Part shown: positions 5,836-60,712 of the stretch, piece after piece
Layout of the letters: every line of letters begins with the position of its first letter
How positions within the stretch are numbered: the first letter of the stretch is position 1
Source of the DNA: an uncultured Thermoproteales archaeon
Lineage (GTDB): Archaea > Thermoproteota > Thermoprotei > Thermoproteales > Thermoproteaceae
Length of the DNA: 64,000 bases
Direction: 5' to 3'
Assembly (NCBI GenBank): GCA_938027595.1
Contig: CALJAK010000012.1
Location: forward strand, 1 to 64,000
The notes under the pieces: model-generated
What the model was told of the DNA's origin: nothing
Databases searched by the model: none
The model's input: the letters and a program-made list of their open reading frames with translations, nothing else
Program-made: the position numbers and the translations under genes

Positions 5836-6699
5836 CTACTTCTGTATTTTAATTTCTTCCCAAATCACCATCGCCACGCCGGTTAGCGTGGCGGCGATGC
5901 CCACGGCCAGCAGTGGGACTTCTAGGGGGCCCAACTGCGTCCAGCCGGTGGGCACCTCGCCGAGGATTAATGCGGCCAGCAGAGTGGCTCCCACTGGCTC
6001 GCCCAGAGTGCTGGCGGCTATCGTGACCGCTCGGTATCTGCCCAGGAGGTAGTTGAAGATTGTGTGTCCCAACATCATGGGCACTGAAGCTATCAATAGA
6101 AACATGGCGAAGGTGTACATGTCGTAGTGGATGAGGTTGACGCCGGCCGCCGCCCCCACCGCCAGAGCCGTGAGTGCAGCTGTCCCATAGGCGACCACCA
6201 CGTAGCTCAGAGTACCCACGGCGGCTCTGGCTAGGCGGCCGAGAGTTAAGTAGCCGGCGAAAGACAACGCCCCCACGAGTGCTAAGAGGTTGCCCAGAAG
6301 CCCCCCGGGGGTCAGCGTCACAGTCACAGCGCCGGCGGTGGCTGTCAACACACCCACGGCAGTTTGTAAATTCACCCGCTCCCCCACGGCTCTGGAGAGA
6401 AACAACATGAATACCGGGTGTATGTTCACTAACGTCGTGCTGGCGGCTACGGTAGTTAAAAACAGCGAGGGGATCCAACTCAAGAAGTGGATAGCTAGCA
6501 ACACGCCGGCCGCGGTCGACATGACCAGAGCGCTGCCGCTCGGCATTTTAAACGGTCTCAACGCCGCCGTGGAGAGGACTATGAGCGTAGAGATGGCCAG
6601 CCGCCAGAAAGTTATGGCTATGGGGTCGGCTGGGGTTAGTCTTATGAGAATCGCAGCGCTGGAGATAGCCAACACACCCACCGCAATGAGCCAAATCAC
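5836..6699 (-). CDS. EamA/DMT-family transporter
   Basis: A 287-aa integral membrane protein with ten predicted helices arranged as two EamA repeats (about 1-130 and 140-285), including the typical FWRLAIS segment near residue 30 and GHTIFNYLLGRY near 215. Drug/metabolite exporter superfamily; substrate unknown. GTG start 6699 with a TATA element shared with the divergent peroxiredoxin gene. First gene of a likely two-gene unit with the CinA-like gene. Confidence 0.85.
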   Translation of the reverse strand: MIWLIAVGVLAISSAAILIRLTPADPIAITFWRLAISTLIVLSTAALRPFKMPSGSALVMSTAAGVLLAIHFLSWIPSLFLTTVAASTTLVNIHPVFMLFLSRAVGERVNLQTAVGVLTATAGAVTVTLTPGGLLGNLLALVGALSFAGYLTLGRLARAAVGTLSYVVVAYGTAALTALAVGAAAGVNLIHYDMYTFAMFLLIASVPMMLGHTIFNYLLGRYRAVTIAASTLGEPVGATLLAALILGEVPTGWTQLGPLEVPLLAVGIAATLTGVAMVIWEEIKIQK

Positions 6700-6716
6700 G
6701 GGAAGCCCGAGGAGAA

Positions 6717-6726
6717 TTTATATATA
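6717..6726. promoter_or_regulatory. Shared TATA box between EamA and peroxiredoxin genes
   Basis: One symmetric AT tract (tttatatata) lies about 20 bp from both divergent start codons (6699 on the minus strand, 6742 on the plus strand). No second element is present, so one TATA box probably serves both directions. Confidence 0.5.
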
Positions 6727-6741
6727 CAGCTCCGACTATCT

Positions 6742-7146
6742 ATGGATTTCCCAGACGTAGAACTCCCCTCTCACGACGGGCGTATGTTGTCGCCGGCTCG
6801 GGCGGCGAGAGCTGTAGTGTACTTCTTCCCAAAGGCCTTCACGCAGGGCTGCACTAGAGAGACAGTGAAGTTCAACCAAGAGTTGCAGAAATTCCGCGAG
6901 AGGGGGTATGAGGTTTTCGGCATTTCTACAGACAGCGTGGAGACTTTGAGGAAATTCGCCGAGAAGTACGGGGTGGGGTTCCCACTCCTCAGCGACAGGG
7001 GTGGGGCTCTAGCCGCGCGGTTGGGTATATTGAAGCGAACCGCCGAGAGAGTAACTTACATACTCCACAACGGCCGGGTGGTGAAAGTAATCAAGGGCTT
7101 GAAGCGGGCGGAGGATCACGTAGACGAAGCGCTGGCTTCCATATGA
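6742..7146 (+). CDS. Peroxiredoxin (BCP/AhpC-TSA type), 1-Cys
   Basis: A 134-aa thioredoxin-fold peroxidase. The peroxidatic cysteine sits in FTQGCTRET near residue 36, a variant of the usual TPGCTxE. It is the only cysteine in the protein, so the enzyme must use an external thiol as resolving partner. The segment EVFGISTDSVE matches the BCP pattern. ATG 6742 follows a TATA box. The stop overlaps the ATG of the TusA-like gene by 4 bp, making the small single-cysteine protein a candidate thiol partner (inference). Confidence 0.88.
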   Translation: MDFPDVELPSHDGRMLSPARAARAVVYFFPKAFTQGCTRETVKFNQELQKFRERGYEVFGISTDSVETLRKFAEKYGVGFPLLSDRGGALAARLGILKRTAERVTYILHNGRVVKVIKGLKRAEDHVDEALASI

Positions 7147-7394
7147 AGACTTACCACGTGAGGGGTCCCTGCCCAGAGCTCTCTACAGTGGTTATAAAAG
7201 CCTACGCCGAGGCGGGGGAGGGGGAAGTGGTAAAAATCGTGAGTCAATGGAGGTACGTGTTGAACGATTTGAAAAACGCCGCTGGCCAACTGGGGTTTGA
7301 AGTAGTTGAAGTGAGAGACCTCGGCAGCGAGGTGGAGGTTTTACTTAGAAAGTCAACACGAGGTCGGCCTCTTTCGCAAGCGCCAGGAAAGTAA
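7143..7394 (+). CDS. TusA/SirA-like sulfur-carrier protein
   Basis: An 83-aa protein with the TusA-like layout: an early single cysteine in RGPCPELST (residues 7-15) at the end of the first strand, then helix, two central strands and a helix (LGFEVVEVRD). In TusA proteins this cysteine carries a persulfide. Translationally coupled (ATGA) to the peroxiredoxin gene and convergent, with 50 bp overlap, with a DsrE-like gene, which supports a sulfur-trafficking context. The C-terminal dozen residues lie wholly in the overlap and look unstructured. Family call moderate. Confidence 0.6.
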   Translation: MKTYHVRGPCPELSTVVIKAYAEAGEGEVVKIVSQWRYVLNDLKNAAGQLGFEVVEVRDLGSEVEVLLRKSTRGRPLSQAPGK

Positions 7395-7734
7395 GTGAGC
7401 CAGCTATCTCCACCCCCTCCAACGGTTGGATACCCAGCAGTCTAGCCACCGGCTCGTCGATGTAGACCTTGACTCCAGAAGCTAGACACTCTCTCGCCAA
7501 TTCCTCAATCCGCCTCGCGCCGAGGCGCTTCAACTTCCACTTTATGTAAATTCCAGCTAGAGTGGGGAGGCCAATTAGCCTCAACTTGGGTCTCCGGCTG
7601 AATAAATAACCCCCCAGCCCCGTGGCGAAGAGGTGCACTTCGTAACCCATCGCTCTAGCTGTGAGTGCAACCACAAGCGCGTGGTACGCCCGGGAGAGGT
7701 CGTTGTCTGACAACATAACCACGGCTTTAGACAT
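7345..7734 (-). CDS. DsrE/DsrF-like protein
   Basis: A 129-aa protein with the DsrE-fold pattern: an N-terminal strand (KAVVMLSDND), helix, the strand GYEVHLFATGLG and near the C-terminus VKVYIDEPVARLLGI followed by a helix and a final strand. DsrE-family proteins pass persulfide sulfur, often together with TusA. The usual cysteine just before the late helix is missing here; the only cysteine is in RECLASG some eight residues upstream, so catalytic competence is uncertain. Start ATG 7734 has a TATA-like element about 23 bp upstream. Confidence 0.6.
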   Translation of the reverse strand: MSKAVVMLSDNDLSRAYHALVVALTARAMGYEVHLFATGLGGYLFSRRPKLRLIGLPTLAGIYIKWKLKRLGARRIEELARECLASGVKVYIDEPVARLLGIQPLEGVEIAGSLTFLALAKEADLVLTF

Positions 7735-7811
7735 ATAAACACCAAGTTAGGTTAATATAAGTGACGAGCCAATGCAGGCGGCGACGGGTGGCCGGTGACC
7801 TGCCGACTGAC

Positions 7812-8450
7812 TCACGCACGTGAGGGACATTTCTCACTCACTGGACACACTCCACACTTGGGCTTCCTGGCGGTGCATATCTCTCTACCGAATTGTATCA
7901 ACTTTAAGTGCACTTCTAGATACTTGTCGGGGGGCACTCTCTCCATGAACCACTTACTAACTGCCCCATATCCACCGTCGACTCCCCAACGTTTGGCAAT
8001 CCTGGCGATGTGTGTATCCACGGGGAAGGTGGGGAGGCCTAAGTTAACCAAAACCACGTCGGCTGTCTTGGGCCCCACTCCCGGTAGAGATAACAGAAGT
8101 GCCCGCGCCCTCTCGACACCCATCTCCGCCAGTTTCTCTGGCGTTATCTCCAGCTCTAGAAACGACGCAGCTAGCGCCTTTAGGCGTTTGGCTCTAGCTC
8201 TCTGCATACCTGCCGTTTTGATGACTTCAGCCAAATCCCCCTCTGGCAGAGAAGCGAGGCGTTCTGGAGTCACGGCGGTTAGCCTCCTCTCGAGATTCTC
8301 GAAAGCCCTCATGGCGTTTTTGTCTGAAGTGTGTTGACTCAACACCACCGCCACTAGCAACTGGAACAAATCTCTACGCATCCACACAGTGGGAGCCGCA
8401 AATTGGCGTAGATCTAGCTTTATAGCTTTGTCAATAATATGCAAATCCAT
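7812..8450 (-). CDS. nth: Endonuclease III (DNA glycosylase/AP lyase)
   Basis: Bifunctional base-excision DNA glycosylase of 212 aa for oxidised pyrimidines. Hallmarks: the helix-hairpin-helix LPGVGPKTAD with the catalytic Lys, then VDTHIARIAKRWG with the catalytic Asp, and a C-terminal [4Fe-4S] cluster C-x6-C-x2-C-x5-C (CTARKPKCGVCPVSEKC). Start ATG 8450 is chosen over upstream in-frame codons because the TATA box (8466-8480) lies 23 bp before it and because the extra residues would run into the divergent gene. Confidence 0.95.
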   Translation of the reverse strand: MDLHIIDKAIKLDLRQFAAPTVWMRRDLFQLLVAVVLSQHTSDKNAMRAFENLERRLTAVTPERLASLPEGDLAEVIKTAGMQRARAKRLKALAASFLELEITPEKLAEMGVERARALLLSLPGVGPKTADVVLVNLGLPTFPVDTHIARIAKRWGVDGGYGAVSKWFMERVPPDKYLEVHLKLIQFGREICTARKPKCGVCPVSEKCPSRA

Positions 8451-8465
8451 AACTAACGTAACTCT

Positions 8466-8480
8466 AGATTTTATAAATCT
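8466..8480. promoter_or_regulatory. Near-palindromic TATA box shared by nth and its divergent neighbour
   Basis: The sequence agattttataaatct is almost its own reverse complement. Its centre is 23 bp from the nth ATG (8450) and 24 bp from GTG 8497 of the plus-strand gene. This argues for one bidirectional TBP site and leaderless transcripts both ways. Confidence 0.55.
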
Positions 8481-8496
8481 CCACGGGGTTAGATTT

Positions 8497-8961
8497 GTGG
8501 AAATGACAAAATTCTCTATCCGCAAGTCCACATTTGACAAATTTATAGAGAGACTTGGGATTGATAAAGAGGAAGTTCTGAAAACTCTAGACGTGGAGGT
8601 AGTCAAAGTTGGGTCTGGCTATAGGTATGTCATAGAGATGGAATCTTTCTTTTTCTTCGTCATGGAGAAGTTATACGCGGCGAGTCGGCCGCGGACTGTT
8701 AGCGATGAGGATTTCGAGATAGTTCTCAAAGAGTGGGTGAGCAAGCTGGCTGGGTTCAGCGGCTACGCGAACCTGGCCGAAGTGAGAGATGTAGTTGTGC
8801 AAGAGTTGGGTATGTCGCAGGAGGAGTTCTCCGAGAAGCTAGCTGCGTTAGTGCAGAGGAAGAGGGGGGAGTATTTATTGGTAGAGGGGGGAGATAGGAA
8901 AGTGTTAGTGGGTACTCGGAAGTACGGCTTGATAAAGAGAGTGAAGAAAATAGAAGCGTAA
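8497..8961 (+). CDS. Hypothetical protein, 154 aa
   Basis: Unrecognised soluble, mainly helical protein. It includes an aromatic tract (ESFFFFVMEKLY, about residues 47-58), a helical segment VVVQELGMSQEEFSEKL and a basic C-terminus (KRVKKIEA). GTG 8497 fits the leaderless spacing from the shared TATA box; ATG 8503, two codons later, is the alternative. Divergent from nth; a repair link is only positional. The middle part could form a winged helix but I see no decisive motif. Confidence 0.6.
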   Translation: MEMTKFSIRKSTFDKFIERLGIDKEEVLKTLDVEVVKVGSGYRYVIEMESFFFFVMEKLYAASRPRTVSDEDFEIVLKEWVSKLAGFSGYANLAEVRDVVVQELGMSQEEFSEKLAALVQRKRGEYLLVEGGDRKVLVGTRKYGLIKRVKKIEA

Positions 8962-17907: not shown

Positions 17908-19941
17908 TTACATAACTCTCTTCACGTAACCCGGCCTGGGGGTGTAGACTTCGCCGTTTCGGATGAGTAACTCAATCAATCTCTGGACTTCTCCACGTGG
18001 CACGCCCGCTTTCTCAGCCTCCGCCATGAGTGTCTCCACTTTCACGGGGCCCCTCTCCGCCTCCTCCAATTTCTTCAATAACTCCACTACTCTCACGTAG
18101 GCCTCCCTCCTGGAGGCCGGGACGCCAGTCATGACTGTGTCTATATCCACCGAGCCGGACTCTACGTCTATACCCACAGACTTGAGGAAAGCTAAGTAAA
18201 GTTTGATAGCTCTATCGGCGTCTTCGCCAGTGGCAATTGGCGAGAGCCGCATTTTAGCCTCGGCGATTGTTAGTCTAATCAACGCCTCCAACTGCCTGGC
18301 AGTTATGGCGACAGCGCTGCCGGGCCCCCGGTACCCACGCCGCATTTCTAAATAGAAAGCGCGGATCTTCTCCTTAGCCTCCTCGCTGAGGATTGGCTTT
18401 ACGTGCCTCCTGGCGTAAGCCACGTACTTACGGAGGAAGTCTGGTCTCAACGTGTCGCTGAACGCCTCTGTGGATTTGCCGGCGTGGAGGTCTAGAATGT
18501 GTCCAGCCAACGCCGAGTCGAACTCTTCCCCAGGCTCGTCTCTAATTACAAAAATCAAATCAAAGCGACTCAGTAGAGAAACCGGCAAGTCGATATTCTC
18601 GGCTACGGTTCTGTTGGGCAGGTACCGACCGAAAGCGGGGTTGGCGGCCGCCAAGACGGCAGTACGCGCATTCAACGTAGCCACAATGCCAGCTTTACTT
18701 ATCGACACAGTGTTCTGCTCCATAGCCTCGTGGAGAGCCACTCTGTCTTTGACGTCCATCTTGTCGATTTCATCTATGACAGCCACCCCCCTGTCGGCCA
18801 ACACCAAAGCGCCGGCTTCGAGATAAAACTCGCCAGTGAGTTTGTCTCTCACCACAGCCGCCGTGAGCCCCGCCGCAGAGGAGCCCTTGCCAGTGGTGTA
18901 CACAGCCCTCGGGGCAATCTTAGCCACAAACTTCAAAAGTTGCGACTTAGCCGTCCCCGGGTCACCCACTAGTAGAATGTTCACGTCCCCCCTAACTCTC
19001 ACCCCGTCTGGGTAGACAATCTCCCTCCCACCGAATAGTAAACAAGCCACAGCCTCTTTCACTTCTCCATATCCATATATAGAGGGGGCAATAGAGCGGA
19101 TGATCAACTCCCGGACGTCTGGCCTCCTGGAAATCTCCAAAATCTTCTCCTCGTCCCCCTTAGTTATCTCCTCCACGAGCTCTTTGTTAGTGGTCTCCAC
19201 ATGCACCCCATAGATGTATGAAGAAACCACGGGCGGCCTCCCCCGGCGCAATTCGCTAGCTGCCAACTCCACTACGCCAGTGAGAGACACAATGTCACCG
19301 GGCTTCACCGAGTCCACCAAGTCGTCAAGCAGCACAACCTCGGCGCTCCTCGGCATCTGCCCCGGAGGCAGATCTTCGGGTCTCTCCTGTAGTATCGCCT
19401 TCTGCCAATCTACGTACTGACTAGATTCAGACACCAACGCAAAACTCCTGGCTCCCCCACAACGGGGACACCGCGCCGGCGGCTCCACGTGGCGCTCTAG
19501 CTCTTGCACCAACTCCACCTCGTAACCACACTGCCCACAGCGATAGAGCGCCCTGTAGAGAAAGTGCTTCGGGGGGGTGAGTCTAGTGACGATGCCCTCC
19601 ACCCGGATCAAGCGACTTATGTACTCAGACCGGAGCTTCCGCAGGGGGACCACCAGGGGGGACCCCCTCGGCCGGAGGTAAAACCGCCGCAATTCGCGAG
19701 CCACCTCGGGGTCTCTCTCCTCCACCACCTCACTCACCGCTCTGTCAGCCTCCGGCAGCACGGCCTTCGGCTTCTCCACCACTAAATCAGCCAGCGCCTT
19801 GTCAAACATCAAAATGTCGTGAAAATCTACCTCAAGCGACCGTTTCCGTTGTATAATTATGTTTATGAGTTCGTCAGAAATCTTCTCGCTAGATAAGATG
19901 AGTTCTCTAAACTTCTCGCGAACCGCGCCCAACTCAAGCAT
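17908..19941 (-). CDS. mcm: Replicative helicase MCM
   Basis: A 677-aa hexameric replicative helicase. N-terminal domain with a zinc ribbon (CGQCG ... CPRCGG, about residues 135-165), then the AAA+ core: Walker A GDPGTAKSQLL near 326, Walker B AVIDEIDKM near 386, arginine finger LSRFDLIF near 450. The C-terminal about 80 residues form a winged helix (PRGEVQRLIELLIRNGEVY). Start ATG 19941 with TATA-like gttaaaaac 23 bp upstream (19960-19968). It is directly followed by Hel308. Confidence 0.96.
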   Translation of the reverse strand: MLELGAVREKFRELILSSEKISDELINIIIQRKRSLEVDFHDILMFDKALADLVVEKPKAVLPEADRAVSEVVEERDPEVARELRRFYLRPRGSPLVVPLRKLRSEYISRLIRVEGIVTRLTPPKHFLYRALYRCGQCGYEVELVQELERHVEPPARCPRCGGARSFALVSESSQYVDWQKAILQERPEDLPPGQMPRSAEVVLLDDLVDSVKPGDIVSLTGVVELAASELRRGRPPVVSSYIYGVHVETTNKELVEEITKGDEEKILEISRRPDVRELIIRSIAPSIYGYGEVKEAVACLLFGGREIVYPDGVRVRGDVNILLVGDPGTAKSQLLKFVAKIAPRAVYTTGKGSSAAGLTAAVVRDKLTGEFYLEAGALVLADRGVAVIDEIDKMDVKDRVALHEAMEQNTVSISKAGIVATLNARTAVLAAANPAFGRYLPNRTVAENIDLPVSLLSRFDLIFVIRDEPGEEFDSALAGHILDLHAGKSTEAFSDTLRPDFLRKYVAYARRHVKPILSEEAKEKIRAFYLEMRRGYRGPGSAVAITARQLEALIRLTIAEAKMRLSPIATGEDADRAIKLYLAFLKSVGIDVESGSVDIDTVMTGVPASRREAYVRVVELLKKLEEAERGPVKVETLMAEAEKAGVPRGEVQRLIELLIRNGEVYTPRPGYVKRVM

Positions 19942-19989: not shown

Positions 19990-20543
19990 TCAACTCAACG
20001 GTTTTACGTATATACTGGCGTTGATCAACAACGCAGAGCAGCCCACTCGCGTCAAATCGAGCCCCCCGGCGTTTATACACCCCGGCGGCAGCGGGCTGCC
20101 GCTTTTGCAATCCACCGGCGTGAAACTACCGACTAGAGTTAACGCTTTTCCGTGGTTTAACGACCATTTAGTGACGTTGTAAACCCACACCACTGCAGAA
20201 GCGCGGGCCTCCCCCCTCCCCCTAACCCCAGCCGCAGTCACCTCGACGTAGAGAAATCCGTTTTCATTCCCCATACAGACGGAGGCGGCGGCTGAGTCAA
20301 AACCGAAAAAAGCCGAGGGGATGAACAACTTCTGCCTGACCGAAACCACGCCGGGCAGACTACCGCTGGAAACCACGTCTCTAACTTGCGACGCCACGTA
20401 GTCAGCCACGGCGTTTGCCAACAGCTTCACGTCTTCCTCAAGCACGCTCTGGGCGTACATATCTACCAAAACCGCCAGTATAGCCATCGCGGCGGCCACG
20501 GCGAAGAAGAGCACTATGGCAGAGATAGAGACAGCCCCCTCAT
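19990..20543 (-). pseudogene. Pilin-like secreted protein, frameshifted after the third codon
   Basis: ATG 20543 overlaps the previous gene's stop (ATGA). Adding one G to the five-G run at codons 2-3 restores a continuous frame beginning M-R-G-A-V-S-I-S-A-I-V-L, an archaeal class III (type IV pilin) signal followed by a single long hydrophobic helix (about residues 4-28). The sequence as given instead reads MRGLSLSLP and stops. A protein could still initiate at GTG 20514 (174 aa) but would lose the processing site. The mature part has a helix rich in Val/Ala and a C-terminal Cys-containing beta domain. Last gene of the pilin-like operon. Confidence 0.6.
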
Positions 20544-21189
20544 CTCAACGCCAAGACGACCTCCTGCACTACTAAATATACGTCGCCACTCAAGTTCTCC
20601 ACGCGTCCCCCAACGATGAGGCTATGGCAGTTTTTATACATCGCCGTAGATATTCTCCTCATTTCGTAAGTCAAATACCTATACCCCTCCAAGCGGACAG
20701 TGGCGTTCATCACATAGACGTAACTCTCCCCAGTCCCCCTCACTACGAAAACCCGGGGATACATGCGCACGTTCCCCGGCGGCGTGGAGTTCACAGCAAT
20801 GAGAGTGTCCCCGGCATAGACACAAACCCCCCCTGAACCCCCCTATATTGTCTATAGACGTCCACTAAATACGTAGAGTTGTACCACACGTTAAACGCGC
20901 GCCACTTGAGGTTGTAATTGTTGACGCCACACCGCAGCGTTATGCCGTACGTGGCGTTCAAAACGCCAAACTTCCCATAGTAAAAGCTCGGCAGATTGAA
21001 GTACTTCCTAGAGCCAGACATGCCGAAGTCAGCCTCCATAGAGTCAGCCAACAACAGTACGAAATTCAAAGCGTTGCGGTACTCCAAAGGCGCCATGGAG
21101 GCATACAACGTGTTCACCACATACGGCAGCGCGGCGAATATCACCAAAAGCGCAATGACAGTCAACACCAGAACCTCAAGCGACGTCAT
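20540..21189 (-). pseudogene. Pilin-like protein with a G7-tract frameshift
   Basis: Starts at ATG 21189 overlapping the upstream stop (ATGA), with N-terminus MTSLEVLVLTVIALLVIF: a pilin-like hydrophobic helix with Glu at position 5. The frame ends at 20791, but one extra base in the seven-G run at 20827-20833 (C7 on the plus strand) joins it to the next frame (AGDTLIAVNSTPPGNVR onward), which reads to 20540. The joined product would be about 216 aa with several tyrosine- and asparagine-rich (N-x-S/T) segments. The two halves are consecutive and non-overlapping in content, so this is one gene broken by slippage or by a sequencing error. Confidence 0.6.
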
Positions 21190-24100
21190 GTGGTAGAAAA
21201 CGGACCCCTACGGGCGTAATCCAAATAGTAATACGGCCTAGGCCACGTGAAGGGAATCACAGCGACGGAATAAGGCGCGGCGGATGAATAAACACGCGTA
21301 AACGCCGTCATGGGGCGGCCGCCCAACGCCGGAGCGCTGTTGGGATAAGACCTAAACCACCAAGGCGGATCGCCCACGGTCACAATTTGGTAGAGAGCCA
21401 TAGCGGGCGAGAGAGATAACGTGTAGTTAAACCCATCGTCCTTCTGATACTCCCATATGTGCCTGTCATAACAGAACCCGTCGTAGTGCCACCAGTAGAG
21501 AGATACGTACCCACTCCGCCAAATACCCATCATTTTCCTATCCTCTCTACAATTCTGAAACCAATCCAGAGAGAACGACGTGCCGTTGTATAGAGCGACA
21601 CTAGCGCCGGATCTTGTGGAAATGACTACAGTAAAGCCATCGGGGTATTCGGACAAGGTGGCCCGCTCTCTCACGTCAATCGCGTCGCTGCCGCGTTTAA
21701 AGAAATCGAAAAATGTCTCCGGCCTCTCGCTAGTTCCATCGCTACACACCGCCAGCAGTACGGCTCTGCCGGAGAGAGGGGTCGCCTCCAGCCGGAGCCA
21801 CAGTCTCTTCCCATCTCTGTAAACTCTTACGGGTATCCACTGTCCCCCGATAAATGCGCGGACGTTGTTAGCGCGGTCGGGCGAGTCGTGAAGCATGACG
21901 TAGTAATACCGCCGAGAAGCGTTGCCGGGGAGGTACACCCGGACGAAGTTTGTACACGGCCGTTGAGTTATGGCGTTGTAGTAATCCCGCTGCCACCGCA
22001 CGAGTTTGTCTCTTAGCCAGTTGTGCGTCTGGGGCGTGGCAAACGTGACGTTGACCGCAGAGCCGGGGGGCACTAGGAGGATTGTGCGGCGCTGCGTGCC
22101 GTAATCAACGTCGTATACGCCCACGTAGCGCGGGTCCGCGGGACTCACGTCGGCGATGGGTCTCTGCGTCCCGGTCCAGGGGAATACGAAAACCGCCGTG
22201 GCGTTTCCCTCGTTTATTATGTAGTAACTACGGCCGGTGGAGCTCAGGGCGTATATCTCCGGCCGCGTGTTGGACACGGCTGTCTTGACGCCGGATGTAC
22301 TCACGAGAATAACGCTGTTTACCCAAGTGGGGGTTGTGAAATCGATTCTGTATTCAGCTCTATCCACGCCGCCGGCGAAGCCGTAGTACTTCACTAACTC
22401 CACGCTGCAGAGCTCAGAGGGGCACGTCTTGTTCACGTAGGTGGAGCCCAAGCTGTAGAACAACGTGAATTTGGCGGCTAGCGTAGCTCTAGGCACTGTT
22501 GAATTCACTTGAATTACATAACTGTACGTGGCTTGGTTGGGGCCTTGGGACACAGAGCGCGCTTCCAAGATGCTAGCGTTTAGCGATATGTTTCTAACTA
22601 TCGACAGTTCCTCAACGCCCGACAGCCCCACGGAGCCCTTCAGCGTAATTTCTCCGCCCGCGCCGCTATTCCGCAGGGCTATTATGTCTACTCTATCCGG
22701 CTTGGCTGCCGGCGGTTGTTCGACAGGAGTTAAAACCACGGCGGGGGGCGGGTCCACGTGCGGCCTAATCCTCACGTATCTATACTGCGCGCTCTCAGTC
22801 CACGGGCTTGTGGTGCTAAATGGATTGTCCACAATGGCGCTGCCCAACACGACGTAAAATCTCCAATCGGTAGTGCCCCACGGCGGTTGGTTGTAGATCT
22901 TGCTACCCAAGAGGCGGACTGGCCTAGTCGTATTGTACAAATAAACTTCATACCTCGTCGAACTGGCGGTGAAAGACAACGAGAAGAAGTACCAGACGTC
23001 GCTCAGTTGAATTGTTCCAGCGTCGTCCCACGTCCTGCCGTTCCAAACGCCGACGCCACTACGCCAATAGCTCCACACCACGGCGGGAGATACGCCTTGT
23101 ATAGCTACAAAATTAGCGCAAATGGGATGCGTAGACTGCGGATTTGACGCGCGGTGATATAGATCTAACCTCGCGGTCCTTATGCCTATGGAGATGGGCT
23201 TCACCGAAGTCTCCACTGCCACGCCCCTCCAGCCCTGGGGGATTTCCACGTATCTATAGACGTTGAAAGCCCAGTTTCTCGTACCGGCGCTGTATCTAGC
23301 CCACACAACGCCGTTGGGACCAACACCGTGGTTGATCACGCCGCCGGTCACTGGATTCGTGCGGCAGTTATCTCTCACTATGCTCCTACTCCAACCGGCG
23401 ATGTCGCTCCCGCTCCAGTACAAACTAGTTCCATATCCAACGCCGCCGTGGTATGTAACGCTAGTTGCAAACGTGGCGCGTGGATCGTTGTTTATCCCAG
23501 AGCTCACTGGCACAAGCGTGCTTTGTGAGTTACACAACACGGGCAACACGCCGCCTATGTAATTCGGCGCGTACACCGCTAACAGCTCTATCGCTTTGCC
23601 TCTCTCTAGAATTCTAGCCCCAATTTCGCCCCTAGCCGGTATCCTCACGTGTAACAAACAGAGTGGGCACTTGGCGATTTCAGCCCACCAAGGCAGTTGT
23701 ATAAGCGCTTTGCCGCACTCCCCCCGCTCTACTGCATCGTTGTTCACGAGGAATATGTAGAGACTTCTCTTTACGTCTACTTTTGCCAAACCGTCTAACA
23801 ACTCCGCTAGAGCGGTGTTGTAATCTTCACCCACGGCGCCGGGCTCCGAGACATGCGCTCCGTATGTAACTACGTAATACCCGTCGTAATTTTCCGCGCT
23901 CCAAAATACCGTCAATCTGTATAGCTTCACGGCGCCCGGTATAGACAAGCGGTTGTTTCTGACGGAGTTTAAATTCCACACCTCGGACAACTGTACCGCT
24001 CTAGGGTATGGAGCGAGAGAGCCGTTGAACCCCCAGTGCCACACGCGGTATTCGAAATCCAACTGTGCCCCCAGCGGTAGGAAGTTTACCTTGGCCGAGA

Positions 24101-24392
24101 CGAGCGTTTTGTTCACGTAACTCCCCACGGCGCGGTAGACCAGTTGGCGGTCCATGTAGAGCCCGGCTGTGAGTCCGCCGGTGGATGTATGCGAAGCTGA
24201 CTTGAGCGCGGTCTGAAGCGCGTATGAATCCACCAAATCCACCACCTCGGGCCACGGCTTTGCGTATATGCCGTAGCCAGACCTAACAGCCGAGGCGTGT
24301 TGCCCCAGTTGAATAGCCAACTGCCCAGCCAAGACGGTAGTCAACGCAATTGCGACCAAGACGGCAGTTAAGAGAATCAACTGCCCCCTCAC
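21186..24392 (-). CDS. Very large secreted pilin-like protein with LamG-type domains
   Basis: 1,068 aa from GTG 24392, which overlaps the previous stop (GTGA). The N-terminus M-R-G-Q-L-I-L-L-T-A-V-L is a class III prepilin-like signal followed by one hydrophobic helix to about residue 28; the rest is extracellular. A segment near 340-560 (with WARYSAGTRNWAF, ARLDLYHRAS and YEVYLYNTTR) looks like a concanavalin/LamG beta-sandwich, and a DUF2341-like region (YYYVMLHDSPDRANNV, then RLWLRLEATPLSGRA) lies near 800-890. Cysteines are sparse and could be disulfide-bonded. It is the only gene of this operon without a frameshift. Likely a surface filament tip or adhesin (inference). Confidence 0.75.
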   Translation of the reverse strand: MRGQLILLTAVLVAIALTTVLAGQLAIQLGQHASAVRSGYGIYAKPWPEVVDLVDSYALQTALKSASHTSTGGLTAGLYMDRQLVYRAVGSYVNKTLVSAKVNFLPLGAQLDFEYRVWHWGFNGSLAPYPRAVQLSEVWNLNSVRNNRLSIPGAVKLYRLTVFWSAENYDGYYVVTYGAHVSEPGAVGEDYNTALAELLDGLAKVDVKRSLYIFLVNNDAVERGECGKALIQLPWWAEIAKCPLCLLHVRIPARGEIGARILERGKAIELLAVYAPNYIGGVLPVLCNSQSTLVPVSSGINNDPRATFATSVTYHGGVGYGTSLYWSGSDIAGWSRSIVRDNCRTNPVTGGVINHGVGPNGVVWARYSAGTRNWAFNVYRYVEIPQGWRGVAVETSVKPISIGIRTARLDLYHRASNPQSTHPICANFVAIQGVSPAVVWSYWRSGVGVWNGRTWDDAGTIQLSDVWYFFSLSFTASSTRYEVYLYNTTRPVRLLGSKIYNQPPWGTTDWRFYVVLGSAIVDNPFSTTSPWTESAQYRYVRIRPHVDPPPAVVLTPVEQPPAAKPDRVDIIALRNSGAGGEITLKGSVGLSGVEELSIVRNISLNASILEARSVSQGPNQATYSYVIQVNSTVPRATLAAKFTLFYSLGSTYVNKTCPSELCSVELVKYYGFAGGVDRAEYRIDFTTPTWVNSVILVSTSGVKTAVSNTRPEIYALSSTGRSYYIINEGNATAVFVFPWTGTQRPIADVSPADPRYVGVYDVDYGTQRRTILLVPPGSAVNVTFATPQTHNWLRDKLVRWQRDYYNAITQRPCTNFVRVYLPGNASRRYYYVMLHDSPDRANNVRAFIGGQWIPVRVYRDGKRLWLRLEATPLSGRAVLLAVCSDGTSERPETFFDFFKRGSDAIDVRERATLSEYPDGFTVVISTRSGASVALYNGTSFSLDWFQNCREDRKMMGIWRSGYVSLYWWHYDGFCYDRHIWEYQKDDGFNYTLSLSPAMALYQIVTVGDPPWWFRSYPNSAPALGGRPMTAFTRVYSSAAPYSVAVIPFTWPRPYYYLDYARRGPFSTT

Positions 24393-24828
24393 GGCCTCCC
24401 TAGAGAGAGCTCCAACCTCACGCGAGTGCCGTCGCTGAGAACCGCCGAAATTGCAGCCACCTCCACTCCGCCAGCGCCTCCGTAACCCCACGGCCTAGCC
24501 ACAGACGCCAACCGCTGCCGCCATTCGGCACACGCCAAACAAGCGAGGGGTCTCACGTCGTCTAGATACACAGTGAAGTTGTAGAAATACCGTTGTGAAA
24601 TCGCGGCGTCTAACATACTCTTCAAACTACCTCCGCTCCCGCAGATAGCCTCCTCCACAGTAGACATGAAGATGGGGTCTGCCGACAGTCTGAGGAGGAC
24701 GAAGTAAGCGTTGGCGGCTACTTCTCTCTCAGAAGCTATGTACAACGGCGCTGGGGCAGCTAGAGAAAAACGTAGAAAACCAAGCCAATGACTAAAGCAG
24801 AGAGGCCGAGTTCCACAACCCACTTCAC
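24389..24828 (-). pseudogene. Pilin-like minor protein with a T5-tract frameshift
   Basis: GTG 24828 overlaps the upstream stop (GTGA) and encodes VKWVVELGLSALVIGLVFYV, a pilin-like membrane helix. The frame then hits TAG, but one extra T in the five-T run (24764-24768) continues it as AAPAPLYIASEREVAANAY through to 24389. Without the correction only a 144-aa frame lacking the membrane helix remains. The mature part has two Cys pairs (CGSGG ... CLAC) and ends with the GTGA overlap into the giant gene. Confidence 0.6.
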
Positions 24829-26131
24829 GGCTTTCTATAGACCACCACCTCCAGGAGGTAAGTGACTGACTGAGAGTCCACCACGCGAGTAGCCACCGCC
24901 GTCTGGAGCTTAGGCTCTATGGAAATCCACCTCTTCCAAGTGTTCAACTCAACAGCGCCGAGTGGGGGCACTGGCATCAACGGAACAACGACGAGCGATC
25001 TCAACCCCTGGCCGCTTGACTCTACCCACACCACGGCAAACAGCGCGTCGGCCGGCACATCTACCCAACACGCGGCGCATCTAGCGGTAGAAGTACATCC
25101 ACCGCAGTGATCTACTTTAACAACTCCGGCCCCCCTCCCGGGGTTTAGAGTTATGTCGCTACCCAACTCTATGAATCCAGAGCCTGTATATATCGACAAA
25201 TACCTCACGCCGAGTGCCGGCGTGTTGGAGTCGGCGCTGCATAGAGAGTCGTGGAGGAGCCAGAGTTGGCGACCTCGGAGGGGGAGGAACATGCCAAATG
25301 CCAGAGGTCTGTTAGTTAAATTAAAGCCGTATATGTCGAAAGCGCGTGGGTAATCCACTCTCTGGGCGTATACGACGACTCCGTCTGAATTCAACAAATT
25401 CGCCAACTGACTGTCTAACACATTCACTTGATATATAGAGCCGCTCTCGGCGAGGTTGTACTCTCTGGAATACAATCCACACACGTCGCCGCAGTAAATA
25501 ACTGTAACCACCACCCGACCCCCGGCTGTGGACCTAACCCAAACTCCTGGGGGCACGTCTCTACACATGGGGTTGTCTCTTTGGATTTGAGTTTGTCCAA
25601 TCTTCACGTTGGGGCATATAGTTAAGTTCACTAACGGCCGTATCCTAATGGAGATGTCGTACAAATCCCACTGATTTCCAAAGAAATTCTTCAAAATTGC
25701 GTTGTAGTCCACGGTAACAGCGCCCCCAGCCGGCGTCAACACGCCGAAGCTCACAATTGACGCTTTGTCAATCCCCGTCTCCTCCACAAACGCCTTCTGC
25801 TCGATGTCACACAAGCCCCCCGCTTGAGACGGCGTAGCCGACAGCGATAGCTTGCCGTCGTCTATCTGCGGTTGGTAGAGGGGACGGGGGGCCGACAGCG
25901 TTAAGTCTACAATGCTCCACACTGTCTTTTGACCACTTGCCGTCTTCACTGCAATGTCGCCTTGCGTGAGTACAATTCTGTCTAGCACTTGCTGCGCCAA
26001 ATTCGTCAATTGCGGTTGTTGCGTAATGTTGTACGGGGGGCATGTTGTGGGAGGATGAGGAGAGAGAAGAGTACGAAAGCGAGAAATACGCCGGAGATTA
26101 CCACTACTTCCACAAACTCCACGAAGATCAC
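24825..26131 (-). pseudogene. Secreted pilin-like protein with a G6-tract frameshift near the N-terminus
   Basis: The bulk frame (24825-26009, about 394 aa, starting TNLAQQVLDRIVLTQGD) lacks a membrane signal. Upstream, in the next frame, lies VEFVEVVVISGVFLAFVLF, a typical pilin-like helix, ending LILPQHAP at a run of six G on the plus strand (26035-26040). One extra base there joins the two into a protein of about 432-435 aa. Starts are GTG 26131 or GTG 26122; the latter lies 24 bp from the TATA box. Many beta-strands and Cys pairs (C-x-x-C) suggest an extracellular domain. First gene of the pilin-like operon. Confidence 0.6.
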
Positions 26132-26745: not shown

Positions 26746-28137
26746 GTGGAGAAGCCGCTTCGCTTCGTGCGAGCCGCCAGCGGAGTTCACGTAGTGGCAG
26801 TCATGACGCACCCCGCCCCCTGTCCGGGCAAATGCGTCTTCTGCCCCACCGCCGTAGATACCCCCAAGTCTTACTTGCCCGACAGCCCCGTCGTGCTTAG
26901 GGCTAGAAGAAGCGGCTACGACCCGTATCGCCAGACGGCGGGCAGGCTGTCGTTGTACATAGCCAGCGGGCACGCCCCGAGCAAGATAGAGGCCATAGTG
27001 ATGGGGGGCACATTCACAGCGCTGCCGCGCGGCTATAGAGAGTGGTTCGTGGGGAATATATACAGAGCGTTAAACGACTACCCCCAGTGGGGGACGTCGG
27101 CGTTTGACATAGATTTAGAGTTTGAACAAATGCGTAACGAAGAAGCGCAAATGCGGTTAGTGGCTCTCGCGGTGGAGACTCGCCCGGATTACGTCGAGGG
27201 GGAGGTAGACCACTTGCTCAAATTGGGAGTCACTAGAGTAGAACTCGGCGTTCAGTCCATATACGACGACGTGTTGGAGAGGGTCGAGAGAGGACATAAA
27301 GCCGCCGAGGTGGTCAAAGCGACGCAGTTGTTGAAAGACGCTGGGTACAAGGTATGTTACCACCTCATGCCGGGTCTGCCCGGGTCGGACCCAGACAGAG
27401 ATTTGGAGATGGTTAGAGAAGTCTTCAGAAATCCGGACTACATGCCCGACTGCGTTAAGATATATCCACTGTACGTAGTGCCCGGCACGAAGTTGTATTA
27501 CGAGTGGAAAGCCGGGAGATACAAGTCGTACAACGACAGAGTTTGGCTGGATCTATTGGCAAAGATGTACGCAGAAGTGCCCCGCTGGGCGCGAGTAATG
27601 CGGCTCGGCAGAGACATACCGCTACACCACGTAGTAGACGGCCCCCGCTGGGGCAACATGAGACAAGTAGTCATGCAGCGCATGGAGGCATTGGGGTTGT
27701 CCTGTAGAGAAATCAGATGTAGAGAAGTGGGGATAAGACTAGTCAACAACAAACCCACAGGAGGGGGGGAAGTGTTTATAAAGAAGTTGACTTACGAAGC
27801 CTCAGGCGGCGTGGAGGTCTTCATAGAAGCTGTAAACGCCGAAGATACGCTATACGGCATAGCCAGGTTGAGAATACCCAACGCGCCCCACAAGCTCGAC
27901 CGACGTACTGCCATCGTGAGAGAACTACACGTCTACGGACCGGCGGTGCCGATAGGAGAGAGAAACCAATGGTGGCAACACAAAGGCGTTGGCAAACGAC
28001 TCATGGAAACGGCGGAAGAAACAGCTAAAGAATTCGGCGCAGTGGCTATAGCCGTAATCTCAGGCGTTGGAGCGAGGCGGTATTATCAACAATTGGGCTA
28101 CTGGAGGCGCGGTCCCTACGTGTACAAAGAATTGTAA
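26746..28137 (+). CDS. elp3: Elp3 tRNA carboxymethyluridine synthase (radical SAM + GNAT)
   Basis: A 463-aa tRNA-uridine 5-carboxymethyl synthase. The radical-SAM cluster motif CPGKCVFCP is near residues 26-34, with further radical-SAM motifs MGGTFT and VETRPDY (about 142). A C-terminal GNAT acetyl-CoA domain spans roughly 330-463 (RELHVYGPAV; GVGKRLMETAE). The N-terminal region before the cluster is much shorter than the roughly 70-100 residues in other Elp3 proteins, so the N-terminal tRNA-binding part appears absent or is encoded elsewhere. GTG 26746 fits the promoter spacing. Confidence 0.93.
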   Translation: MEKPLRFVRAASGVHVVAVMTHPAPCPGKCVFCPTAVDTPKSYLPDSPVVLRARRSGYDPYRQTAGRLSLYIASGHAPSKIEAIVMGGTFTALPRGYREWFVGNIYRALNDYPQWGTSAFDIDLEFEQMRNEEAQMRLVALAVETRPDYVEGEVDHLLKLGVTRVELGVQSIYDDVLERVERGHKAAEVVKATQLLKDAGYKVCYHLMPGLPGSDPDRDLEMVREVFRNPDYMPDCVKIYPLYVVPGTKLYYEWKAGRYKSYNDRVWLDLLAKMYAEVPRWARVMRLGRDIPLHHVVDGPRWGNMRQVVMQRMEALGLSCREIRCREVGIRLVNNKPTGGGEVFIKKLTYEASGGVEVFIEAVNAEDTLYGIARLRIPNAPHKLDRRTAIVRELHVYGPAVPIGERNQWWQHKGVGKRLMETAEETAKEFGAVAIAVISGVGARRYYQQLGYWRRGPYVYKEL

Positions 28138-28639: not shown

Positions 28640-30904
28640 TTATTCTATAGAGGTTTCCACTATTGCTCTCCTGCGACGCCTCCGTATGAACCACACTGCG
28701 AACACAGCGGCGGCTGCGCCGCCGGCGATTGCGACGAGAGGCATTGGGTCGAGGCTCCACACTGCTTCGAAAGTCGTGGGGGCGTTAGCTATCGGCATCG
28801 CTGGGTATGTGTAAACAACTCCGGCGATTATGTCCCGCCAGCCGGTGAAGACGTATCGCAGCGGAGGGGGGGTCCCACGCTTCGGTAGGCGTGGGGACCG
28901 CCGCTATTGCAGAACCGGCGTCTGCCCAAACCGCCGGCGGCGCTTGGCCATATCTAGTGACGAAAGTGGCTAGGTACTGCACTTTGGTTAGGTAGGTGAT
29001 ATTGAGCGGTTTGTCCACCTTCGCCCTCAGCGGGATCTCCACGGGTCCTGGGACTCCGTTTATAACCCACTGGCGCAACACAATGCGGACTCCAGCGCTT
29101 TCGCTAATGGGGGTGGGGATAGTGACAACAATCTCGCTATCTCTGTCTGCCCAAGTGGCGTTGGGCGGCTGCGCTACGTAAGCCGGCGGTTTGACCCACA
29201 CTCTGTACTGCGTCCGGTACTTTGGGGTTAGAGTTATCGAGCGGCTTGCCACTCTCTCTATGGCTAAGGCGAATTCTTCTTCAGTGTATTCAAGTCCAGC
29301 CCAACCGGCTAATTTGAGCCTAGTGCCGTTTCTAAAGTCGTACACGTCGGGTGTTTGAAACACTACTCTACTCCCCAAATCTACCCAAGTGGAGGTGGAG
29401 CCATTCACCACTGCGGGCCACTTGGTGGACACTAACACTTGCGTTACGTAGAAACCCTGAGCCGAGATTGGGTAGTGAGATACCTTGGGCTCGCGGCCGC
29501 TGGCAATCGGAGCGCCGAATTGGTCGAACACCACCACCGTCTCTAGTCTCAACCTAGCCGCGTCGTTTATTTGTATAACCGGCGGTAGTATCACTGTGTG
29601 GATTGCAGAAATAGTCGTGGGTTTCTGTACATCAACCGAAATAGTGGGTATGGGCTCCACTATCCTCCCGTCTACCTGCCAATTCGCCAGTCTTAGAAAA
29701 CCTCCGGCGTGTTCAACACGGGGATTTCGACTTGCGGCTCTGTGTAGAACACAGCCACGCCGCTAGCCCAATCCGGCCCCCGCACAAGCGGCGATTTGTA
29801 AACTCTATACTCCAACACGTAGCTTATCTTCAAAGGCTCAGCCAAATCGCCAGTGACGTAGAGAGAGGTTTTCCACCGGCTTACACCTAACGTCGCCGAG
29901 GTATTTATAACGCGGCTCTACATCCACACGACCCACTGGCACAACCAAACGCCGGGAGTCAGACACTTGATACACGTACTCAACTCCGCCGGATTTAACC
30001 ACTACTTCCGCCGGCAGACACTGGCGAGGCGCATCTAAGGAGAGAGTAACTCTAGCCAGTCTGACAGAAGAAGTGGAGTCCCAAGTTTCGTAAACTAGAG
30101 CCCTCCCGTCGTGAGAGAGAGCTAAAGACGTCACTGGACGCCCCACAGAAATCCTAGCCGCTTCGACCACTCAGTCGCCATGTTCAACACAGAACCGCGG
30201 CAAGTGTACACTCTAGACAAGTCCCCCGCCAATTTGTAAACTTCGCCGCCGGCGGTGCCTAAATAAGCAGTCTTCCCGTCTCTACTGTAGACGGCCGCAG
30301 TGACGGGGGCTGGTAGTTTAAACCTCCTCGCCACCGCGCCGTTTCTCACCACAACCACACTGCCGTCTACACCCCCCACGATTACGTCTACGCAGTTAGT
30401 AGCCACAACAGAAGCGTTTAGAACTAGAGAAGTAGCCCAATGGGGGTAGCCATACGGCGTGTGTAAAGACGCCACAGCGCCTTTGTACACTCCGGCAATT
30501 ATCACTGGAGGCAGCGGGAGAGTGAAATTGAGCACTACAGAAAGCCTCTTGGGGAGGACAACGCCGTATTGCCTAAGCGCGTTCAACACGTCGTCTGAAA
30601 GCTCTATGTTAGTAGGCGTGGTGATCTCAATGGGGACCTCCCGCCTCAAGATTTGGTAGACGTAAGGCCGGTTCACTAACGCAAAACAACCGCCGACTGC
30701 GTCGGAAGCGAGGGGGGGATACACAGCCTCCATAGAGTAGAGAACAGAGCCGTCTAACCCCCTCACTTCTACGCCGTTGGGAAACACCACGTAATAAACG
30801 TCGAGAGACTCCGTAGGCACAACGTAAGCAGAAGCGAAAACCGCCAACGACAACAAGACTAGAAACCACATAACGCCATACATGATTCGATATATAGATA
30901 TCAC
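28640..30904 (-). pseudogene. Large cell-surface protein gene broken by four frameshifts
   Basis: Restored, this is one protein of about 755 aa: an N-terminal Sec signal (VMWFLVLLSLAVFASAYV), a beta-propeller-like part (VVVVRNGAVARRFK; SLALSHDGRALVYETWD), several beta-sandwich repeats (YRVWVKPPAYVAQPPNATW), and a C-terminal membrane anchor (MPLVAIAGGAAAAVFAVWF then RRRRRR) ending at TAA 28640-28642. The frame changes near 30150 (one base missing), at an A4/T4 run 29869-29872 (one extra), at 29697-29700 (one missing) and at a G7 run 28866-28872 (one extra); the total length is again a multiple of three. GTG 30904 overlaps the upstream gene's stop (GTGA). Confidence 0.65.
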
Positions 30905-48234: not shown

Positions 48235-49352
48235 AGAAAACAAGAGAGACAGACTCTCCTACCCACCGCTCTCTCGACTTCCTCCACAGTGAGGTGAGTC
48301 AAACTATCCACTTCCAGCGCCGCTGGGATTTTGTCGCCATCTAGAAAATTATATATCATGTGACTCTCTGGGGGAGTCTTCACGCCGTGTGGACACTTTC
48401 TCCTCAACGGCGGCGACGCTATAGATATGTGAACTTCTCTAGCCCCCGCCTTCCCCCTCAACAATTGCGAAATCTGTTTAATAGTCAACCCACTGATGAG
48501 ACTGTCGTCTACTACCAAAACTCTCTTCCCCCTCACTACAGACTCCACTACGTTGGCTTTGAGTTGAATCACCGCCAGTCTCTCACGTATTTCGTCAAGT
48601 AGCGCACTCCTCCCCCTAGCGGTGGCCACAAACGCGGGGAAACACCACCGGCCAAGCCCCCTGGCTAGCCAAGAGGCGTAGTAAACGCCAGTTTCGGGCA
48701 CGCCCACTACTATATCCACGTCGGCTTCTACTTTCTCAGCGAGCGCCGTGGCTAACCTAGACCTAACCTCAGCCACTTCCACTCCATCTATCTCGCTGTC
48801 CAACCTAGAGGCGTATATGTACTCCATGGCGCAGAGAGGGCCCAACGTCGAACCCCCGCTAGACTCAACGCCGTATTGCCACACTTTCAACAATTCCCCA
48901 CCCCCCAAACTCCTCCTCACTTCTCCACCCAGCACCTCAATGGCGGAGGACTCAGTGGCGGCGATCAAGAAGTCAAAACCGTGAGCGCCTAGAGCCAAAT
49001 GCCAGAAGTTAGGCGGTCTGTAGAGATAAACAACGCCGTCTCTAGTCAACGCTGTGTAGACAGTGTTCTGTGGCTTGTCGCCTATGGAAACCTCCTCAGG
49101 GCCGAATTTACACACCACGCCCCCCTCGGTCTCTACGCAACAATCCTCTACGTACACACACCCCACAGCCGCTTGTCCCACCGCCTTTCCACTCTCTGGC
49201 GACACGTCTATTTTCTCCACGCGACCCCCACGTAGTATGTATACAGAAGTCACGTCTCCCCTGTTAGACATGGCTTTAACGCCGTAGTGGAGGAGTGGAT
49301 AGAGATCTGTCTCGCCGCCGAAGTTGAATATTGCGAAGAGCCCTGCCGACAT
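48231..49352 (-). CDS. PurF paralogue lacking the glutaminase nucleophile
   Basis: 373 aa, related over its whole length to PurF but starting MSAGLFAIF: the Met-Cys-Gly nucleophile is gone, and the glutaminase landmarks HTRYST and FNG of the true PurF are also absent. The PRTase half is intact (VLVVDDSLISGLTI near 275). The candidate iron-sulfur cysteines are kept: LCAMEYIYA, RKCPHG and the C-terminal CLSC. Located between purD and purN and overlapping both by 1-4 bp. It may be an ammonia-dependent PRTase, a regulatory subunit of the second purF in the window, or an adapted enzyme. Confidence 0.85.
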   Translation of the reverse strand: MSAGLFAIFNFGGETDLYPLLHYGVKAMSNRGDVTSVYILRGGRVEKIDVSPESGKAVGQAAVGCVYVEDCCVETEGGVVCKFGPEEVSIGDKPQNTVYTALTRDGVVYLYRPPNFWHLALGAHGFDFLIAATESSAIEVLGGEVRRSLGGGELLKVWQYGVESSGGSTLGPLCAMEYIYASRLDSEIDGVEVAEVRSRLATALAEKVEADVDIVVGVPETGVYYASWLARGLGRWCFPAFVATARGRSALLDEIRERLAVIQLKANVVESVVRGKRVLVVDDSLISGLTIKQISQLLRGKAGAREVHISIASPPLRRKCPHGVKTPPESHMIYNFLDGDKIPAALEVDSLTHLTVEEVERAVGRRVCLSCFL

Positions 49353-59274: not shown

Positions 59275-60315
59275 TCAGGGCAGTGGCTCTAGCTCCTCCA
59301 GCGTTTGGGGATTTATCCGTATCTTACCCACTTTCACCTCGTCGAAATCGTCCGTAGTGCAATACAGCGAGAGTTGTGGCTCGAATTTCTCCACTACTCC
59401 ATATCCCACTAACTTGCCGCTTTTGTATAAAGCGGCGAAGAGATTTTTCAAATAACCCGGCGGCACTATAGACAAGTGGTTTTCTCTCTCTGGCTTCTCT
59501 ACGTTTCTCTCGACGTATCTCCCCCAGGGGCATGTGAGACCCCTCTCCCACTTGCAGTGTGTCAATTTGTCGAGTTCTGTGGTGATTCTATGTCTCAGCG
59601 CTATCTTTCTATATAGATAATTCCTCCACTGTCGCCTCTCCTCAACGCTACGCATGGCGGCTCGGCTGGGTTTAGACACCACCACGCCGGGTAGGTACAT
59701 CTCTCCCATGTTTACTACTCTCGCACCCACGGCGTCTGCAATCGCTTTGAGTAACTGAAGCCCCCTGCCGGAAGTCCAGCCGGGGGTGTTTATTACCAAT
59801 GGAGGACTGACCTGTCTCACGCAGTAAGTCACGCCGGCTACAATCAAATCTTCAACGCCACGTGGAGAAGTAGAGCCAACGAAATACGCCCCCAGCGGCT
59901 CTAACTCAGATATGTGAACCACAGGCTCGGCGGCGCAGCCACACGACACGAAACCCGGCAGACCTATGTCCGATTGACCCACATCTGCGTCTATCACGCA
60001 GCCACCCACCGACATCTTTACGTTTAGTAAGTATGTGGAAAAACCACTTTTGCCAGAGTCTGGGGGACCCACCACAACCAACGCGCCCTCCAGCGGAATG
60101 TCCCAATCTCTCGGAATTGGAGAACCCGCCACTAACTCCACCGAACCTCCGCTGGTTTTAACTACGGCGGGGCCCTCGACGGGGTATTGTCTATATGGGG
60201 GAATTTTGAATCTTCTAAAAAACCCCCCGAAGACTCTACAACCCACTTCACACTCCACCTCGGCGGGGCCTTTCAACAAAACCGCGTGGTCAGGCGGTAT
60301 TTGAATTGTAAACAC
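59275..60315 (-). CDS. Clp1/Grc3-type polynucleotide kinase
   Basis: 346-aa RNA/DNA 5'-kinase of the Clp1 family. Walker A VVGPPDSGKSGFS near residues 79-91, DADVGQSDIGLPG near 108-120 (catalytic Asp region) and VINTPGWTSGRGLQ lid motif near 172-186. Acts on 5'-OH RNA ends, likely in tRNA or rRNA processing in archaea. GTG 60315 with a TATA-like cacatatatatcc about 20 bp upstream; divergent from an NfeD-like pseudogene. Confidence 0.9.
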   Translation of the reverse strand: MFTIQIPPDHAVLLKGPAEVECEVGCRVFGGFFRRFKIPPYRQYPVEGPAVVKTSGGSVELVAGSPIPRDWDIPLEGALVVVGPPDSGKSGFSTYLLNVKMSVGGCVIDADVGQSDIGLPGFVSCGCAAEPVVHISELEPLGAYFVGSTSPRGVEDLIVAGVTYCVRQVSPPLVINTPGWTSGRGLQLLKAIADAVGARVVNMGEMYLPGVVVSKPSRAAMRSVEERRQWRNYLYRKIALRHRITTELDKLTHCKWERGLTCPWGRYVERNVEKPERENHLSIVPPGYLKNLFAALYKSGKLVGYGVVEKFEPQLSLYCTTDDFDEVKVGKIRINPQTLEELEPLP

Positions 60316-60372
60316 ACATATACAACGTGGATATATATGTGTCTCGTTTAGCTCTATTGATAGCTAGACGAA

Positions 60373-60712
60373 TTGTTGTTATTCACAACGCCGGCGGCCG
60401 TGGCGTTGTACGCCCTGGCTCTCACACCACTGTGGATAACTGCAGCGATAGCTACGCCCTCGTTAACTATCTATATATGTGGCATGGAAAATCTCCAGAG
60501 AGAGTAGCAGCAATCTCAGCGTTGGGGTGGTGGTGGAAGAGCCCGAGGGGGTTGTTAAAGTGTGGGGAGAATACTGGAGAGCCGTCTGCGTGGGTTGTAG
60601 ACTCCCCGCCGGCTCTTGTGTGGAGATCGTCGAGGTGAAAGAGGGTAGGGTTTACGTCAAGCCCGTCAGTGGAGGAGATTCAACAACTCCCAGGTGTTTT
60701 TCATCACGTTGA
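60373..60712 (+). pseudogene. NfeD-like membrane protein with an A4-tract frameshift
   Basis: TTG 60373 starts LLLFTTPAAVALYALALT, one to two membrane helices, ending in a stop near 60512. Removing one A from the four-A run at 60488-60491 joins it to ISRESSSNLSVGVVVEEPEG and then an OB-fold like the NfeD C-terminal domain (VVKVWGEYWRAVCV; GSCVEIVEVKEGRVYVKPV). A short single-domain NfeD of about 112 aa would result, possibly acting with a membrane protease. The 3' end overlaps the convergent coiled-coil gene by 47 bp. Confidence 0.5.

Follow-up and report, generated by a model that had tools for sequence, protein, structure and literature searches.

In an archaeon of the same genus as Pyrobaculum oguniense TE7, a set of pilus genes has probably been inactivated recently and in truth, by slippage-type indels in a genome without MutS, a case of ordinary gene loss. 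The genes lie on contig C12, in a window (the whole stretch of DNA analysed) of 64,000 nucleotides. A pilin operon of five minus-strand genes, g1 to g5 (19990–26122), is placed there between a methyltransferase gene and the MCM gene, and four of its genes are broken, as is a beta-propeller surface gene. The features are:

17908–19941, minus strand: MCM helicase, intact flanking control (Pfam MCM, E 1.3e-99)
19990–20543, minus strand: g5, broken, pilin-like protein of ~184 aa with a class III-like signal
20535–20539, minus strand: lesion of g5, a G5 run right after the ATG plus one base, with a premature TAG (20514–20516) after 9 codons
20540–21189, minus strand: g4, broken, helix-anchored protein of ~217 aa, with its lesion in a G4 run (20809–20812)
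21186–24392, minus strand: g3, intact, large protein of 1068 aa with a class III-like signal (VRGQLILLTA...)
24389–24828, minus strand: g2, broken, helix-anchored protein of ~146 aa
24766–24770, minus strand: lesion of g2, a T5 run, with a premature TAG (24760–24762) after 22 codons
24825–26122, minus strand: g1, broken, secreted pilin-operon protein of ~432 aa with an N-terminal hydrophobic helix
26035–26040, minus strand: lesion of g1, a C6 run, with a premature TGA (26006–26008) after 38 codons
26139–26717, minus strand: SAM methyltransferase, intact flanking control (Pfam Methyltransf_11)
26746–28137, plus strand: radical SAM/acetyltransferase (Elp3-like), intact control between both broken loci (Pfam Radical_SAM, Acetyltransf_1)
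28664–30904, minus strand: beta-propeller surface protein, broken, with a C-terminal TM anchor

Counted from start codon to stop, g1, g2, g4 and g5 measure 1298, 440, 650 and 554 nucleotides, all 2 mod 3 and each one base short, whereas g3, with 3207, is 0 mod 3 and open throughout, which bears out the claim of a preliminary description of this DNA that one base is missing from four of the five genes and that g3 alone is intact. The exact 4-bp overlaps between neighbouring genes that it described are also there. The length of g1 is given from the GTG at 26122 (from 26131 it would be 1307), and the direction of the shift is identical at all four lesions, from frame 0 to one common other frame, as for a missing base. 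The lesions of g1 and g5 sit in the C6 run and in the G5 run just after the start codon, where they had been described, while the T5 run of g2, previously given as 24764–24768, is two bases away from that position. For g4, the G7 run at 20827–20833 had been proposed and is rejected here: the homologues (GGLVAEPGDALIAVN, GGLIALVGDTMVAVN), used as a guide in placing this lesion, fit frame 0 as far as FVSMPG and pick up again at DTLIAVN, and the missing base therefore falls in CCGGGGACAC, at 20809–20812. The site in g5 was likewise set from homologues, by eye. Identity to intact orthologues is 50–53% for g1 (in G010, G005 and P. oguniense), 61–66% for g2, 51–58% for g4 and 47–51% for g5; g3 is 50–53% identical to its nearest relatives. 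We propose that slippage in replication at these short mononucleotide runs would have cost each of the four genes one base, and that the resulting frameshifts would truncate the proteins, in g1, g2 and g5 no further along than shortly past the N-terminal helix. Since each frameshift would truncate its protein, no such pilus would be assembled from the sequence as it is written.

The beta-propeller gene would have been broken in another manner, through a larger out-of-frame deletion together with small indels. About 325 bp are deleted, with ~108 residues gone at ~30165–30173, and three more indels are found near 29855, near 29703 and in the C run at 28866–28872, shifts both ways being needed to restore the frame. 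The remaining sequence is 59% identical to an intact 860-aa orthologue, and its C-terminus reads ...LVAIAGGAAAAVFAVWFIRRRR. In all 12 family relatives the gene is open, and it is broken here alone; a second, independent search gave identical fragments. It stands directly upstream of g1 in G007, G008 and G009, and in G005 its neighbours are the TadC and ATPase genes. Gene neighbourhood and shared loss would thus tie a beta-propeller surface protein to a poorly studied pilus.

None of the five operon genes is named above the cut-off by Pfam or NCBIfam, the N-terminus of g3 giving a weak match to DUF7261 (E 8.5e-4) below it. The predicted model of the g5 orthologue of P. oguniense (pLDDT 87) combines a 55-residue N-terminal helix (residues 5–59) with a beta domain and has no significant PDB match in a structure search; the predicted g3 model (pLDDT 30) is too poor for use. 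For the Pyrobaculum-Thermoproteus group, Makarova et al. (2016) described a complex pilus of subclade 4G, in which both the ATPase and TadC are diverged and one of two large proteins ends in a C-terminal membrane segment (PMC4858521). Assigned by that description, g1–g5 and the propeller protein fit the secreted and surface part of a subclade 4G type IV pilus. The host has a secretion ATPase (T2SSE match at G000:C10:29125–29829, within a 507-aa open frame) and an open TadC-like gene (C10:30275–31753, 510 aa), the product of which is 61% identical to a Thermoproteus-genus protein that matches UpsF below the cut-off (E 5e-10). Both large proteins are represented, by g3 (1068 aa) and by the propeller protein with its C-terminal TM segment, and in G012 the TadC and ATPase genes follow the operon within about 3 kb. 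PF00482, the other TadC type, is missing from the host genome and from that of P. oguniense.

All five operon genes were compared by frameshift-aware protein-to-DNA alignment with 12 relatives (~60 gene copies), six from the genus (P. oguniense G001, G005 and G007–G010) and six from the family (G011, G012 and G015–G018), complete genomes among them. Save for one run of N in a draft, no frameshift or stop was found in g1–g5 of these 12: the apparent g3 frameshift of G017 is that run, and the apparent g3 stops of G008 and G009 arose where the search alignment ran beyond the natural stop. Gene order is kept in the relatives, and so are most of the overlaps. Because the genes are open there, they must have been intact in the ancestor, and the family as such does not rely on recoding; that the split frames are separate intact proteins in homologues, an outcome that the preliminary description had considered, is ruled out by the whole frames in all 12. 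The broken genes therefore present themselves as pseudogenes do, with the frame disrupted here and intact orthologues in relatives. Their identity to an outgroup equals that of the intact orthologues to it, with no acceleration seen, as would be expected only if the loss is recent or the lesions are errors; since divergence is no faster than in intact orthologues, the loss, if real, should be recent. In four other members of the genus (G006, G004, G003 and G002; L015–L018) the g3-like protein is much shorter, about 400–450 aa, and matches over the first ~70 residues only, with a propeller gene nearby; strong divergence of the pilin set, or its replacement, seems to have taken place there. The pilus operon of G007, a draft genome, is split across two contigs (C136 and C88; L009, L038) and is 91–97% identical to that of G008.

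As a control, proteins predicted from 2.0 Mb of G010 were aligned, at 40% identity or more, to the window and 20 contig starts of the host, about 318 kb of its 1.24 Mb. The host genome, in 24 contigs, reaches that size at 96.5% completeness, compared with 1.6–2.5 Mb in most of the genus. The alignable set comprised 306 genes (264 kb) with 993 runs of 5 bases and 388 longer ones. Fourteen of the 306 genes were flagged. The propeller gene, g1, g2 and g4 were among them, and several others are artefacts of mis-called G010 ORFs; g5 escaped flagging since its lesion lies within the first codons. Five of the flagged places (window 6137–7143 and 7348–7810, L048 18459, L051 15446 and L056 15509–16056) were discounted, since they probably reflect wrongly called starts in the G010 set or false ORFs that overlap there. 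Of the pilus-system genes 5 of 6 were hit, against roughly 6 of 300 others as we ourselves judged the flagged cases (Fisher P about 1e-7); if as many as 12 others are generously counted, P becomes 1.7e-6. All these tests are post hoc and their P values are guides only. With the other indels of the sampled genome generously counted as the basis, the operon has 4 indels in 6.1 kb where 0.29 would be expected (P about 2e-4, post hoc) and, with the propeller gene, 8 where 0.39 would be expected (P about 1e-8, post hoc). Each of the four operon lesions falls within a run of at least 4 bases; such runs account for 8% of the sequence of these genes (P about 4e-5). The lesions track the pilus system, not run length, and are rare elsewhere in the 306 alignable genes; the flanking genes are whole, as had been stated earlier for housekeeping genes of the window with equally long G/C runs. 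Elsewhere in the window, at 60259–60664 on the plus strand, what is left of a gene for a small membrane protein (53% identity to G010 48635–49144) shows three apparent frameshifts. On contig C17 of the host, a trehalose-phosphate synthase/phosphatase-like gene (L056:3072–5252, minus strand), 70% identical to its counterpart in G010, has two in-frame stops, and a coiled-coil gene near it (7585–8785) has one extra base, which suggests further recent gene loss on that contig.

The preliminary description had left the choice among decay, switching of a surface system and sequencing error. Decay is the best supported, because the relatives are intact, the linked surface gene is broken with a deletion of ~325 bp, and MutS is lacking, and we infer that the lesions are present in the living cell and that piliation has been lost. 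A uniform sequencing error is rejected, the lesions being clustered. The main rival is a local sequencing or consensus error, by which homopolymer bases would have been under-called in one poorly resolved stretch while the organism itself carries intact copies, and we regard it as a serious though rather unlikely explanation. It would account for operon lesions that are all single bases missing from runs of 4–6, a pattern that some sequencing methods also leave when they under-call homopolymers, and for broken genes with neither a nonsense change nor faster divergence. These points on run signature and divergence were counted against inactivation, together with the intact ATPase and TadC-like genes and the lesion-free state of g3, which is more than half of the operon (P about 0.05). 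Nevertheless, the propeller deletion is no homopolymer error, and the same stretch holds g3 and the intact MCM, methyltransferase and Elp3-like genes; conserved flanking genes being intact was counted in favor of inactivation. A local error also has to contend with the few lesions found despite the many runs in the aligned genes, with a probability of about 9e-4 that all 8 indels would be confined to the broken genes by chance, and with the in-frame stops in the trehalose-phosphate synthase gene.

The switching that had been proposed would be a slipped-strand, multi-gene phase variation at short runs, with the assembly having caught the off state, and, if true, the pilus genes would toggle to give mixed piliated and bald cells. 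The affected genes are surface genes, the lesions of g1, g2 and g5 are near the 5' end and the genome is without MutS, and in surface genes and homopolymer frameshifts there is a likeness to bacterial slipped-strand contingency loci. We consider it quite improbable, however, because the loci have no long unstable tract conserved as such: the runs, of only 4–6 bases, are ordinary for this genome, longer ones sit in intact genes, and the sites at which switching had been envisaged are not kept as runs in relatives, except for the G5/G6 at the RG codons of g5. The present case also differs from contingency loci in that several genes are off together, an unlikely design for a switch, and that the linked propeller deletion is irreversible. 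Least probable of all, and very hard to sustain, is that each run serves as a site of programmed -1 ribosomal frameshifting or of transcriptional slippage, so that full-length proteins are made; the identical shift needed by all four genes and their unaccelerated divergence speak for it, but none of the 12 relatives needs it in any gene, the sites have no motif in common beyond a run, and the propeller gene would need shifts in both directions and would still be without its ~108 residues. The case cautions against taking lesions at short homopolymers in draft genomes of archaea for phase variation without reads.

Recent inactivation of the pilus genes would, if real, offer a snapshot of the loss of a pilus system in a small-genome Pyrobaculum. 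Slippage without mismatch repair had been argued from P. aerophilum, in which mononucleotide runs are unstable; the host is not that species, and no match to MutS was found in its own genome, where a NucS-type match is present.

Compared with the subclade 4G system, the host shares the ATPase, the diverged TadC, the two large secreted proteins, several small pilin-like proteins and, through its relatives, their linkage; it differs in the damage to g1, g2, g4 and g5 and to one of its large proteins, that of the propeller gene, and its membership of arCOG05608–05612 is putative, assigned by the published description. As for the lesions themselves, MutSL is absent from hyperthermophilic archaea, and in Sulfolobus acidocaldarius single-base frameshifts figure prominently at short runs (PMC4471258); in its pyrEF genes indels made up 95 of 108 mutations, 84 of the 95 being single-base, with a single chain-terminating change (PMC2688765). 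Under such a spectrum, genes freed from selection would be expected to gain indels at short runs earlier than nonsense changes, which is the pattern here, and the mutation spectrum of the host may be like that of Sulfolobus. While the pyrEF spectrum comes from a selection experiment and the present lesions from an assembled genome, the two are alike in their single-base indels in short runs and few or no nonsense changes (PMC2688765, PMC4471258), and the short-run -1 indels of the pilin operon, if real, resemble what was measured in Sulfolobus.
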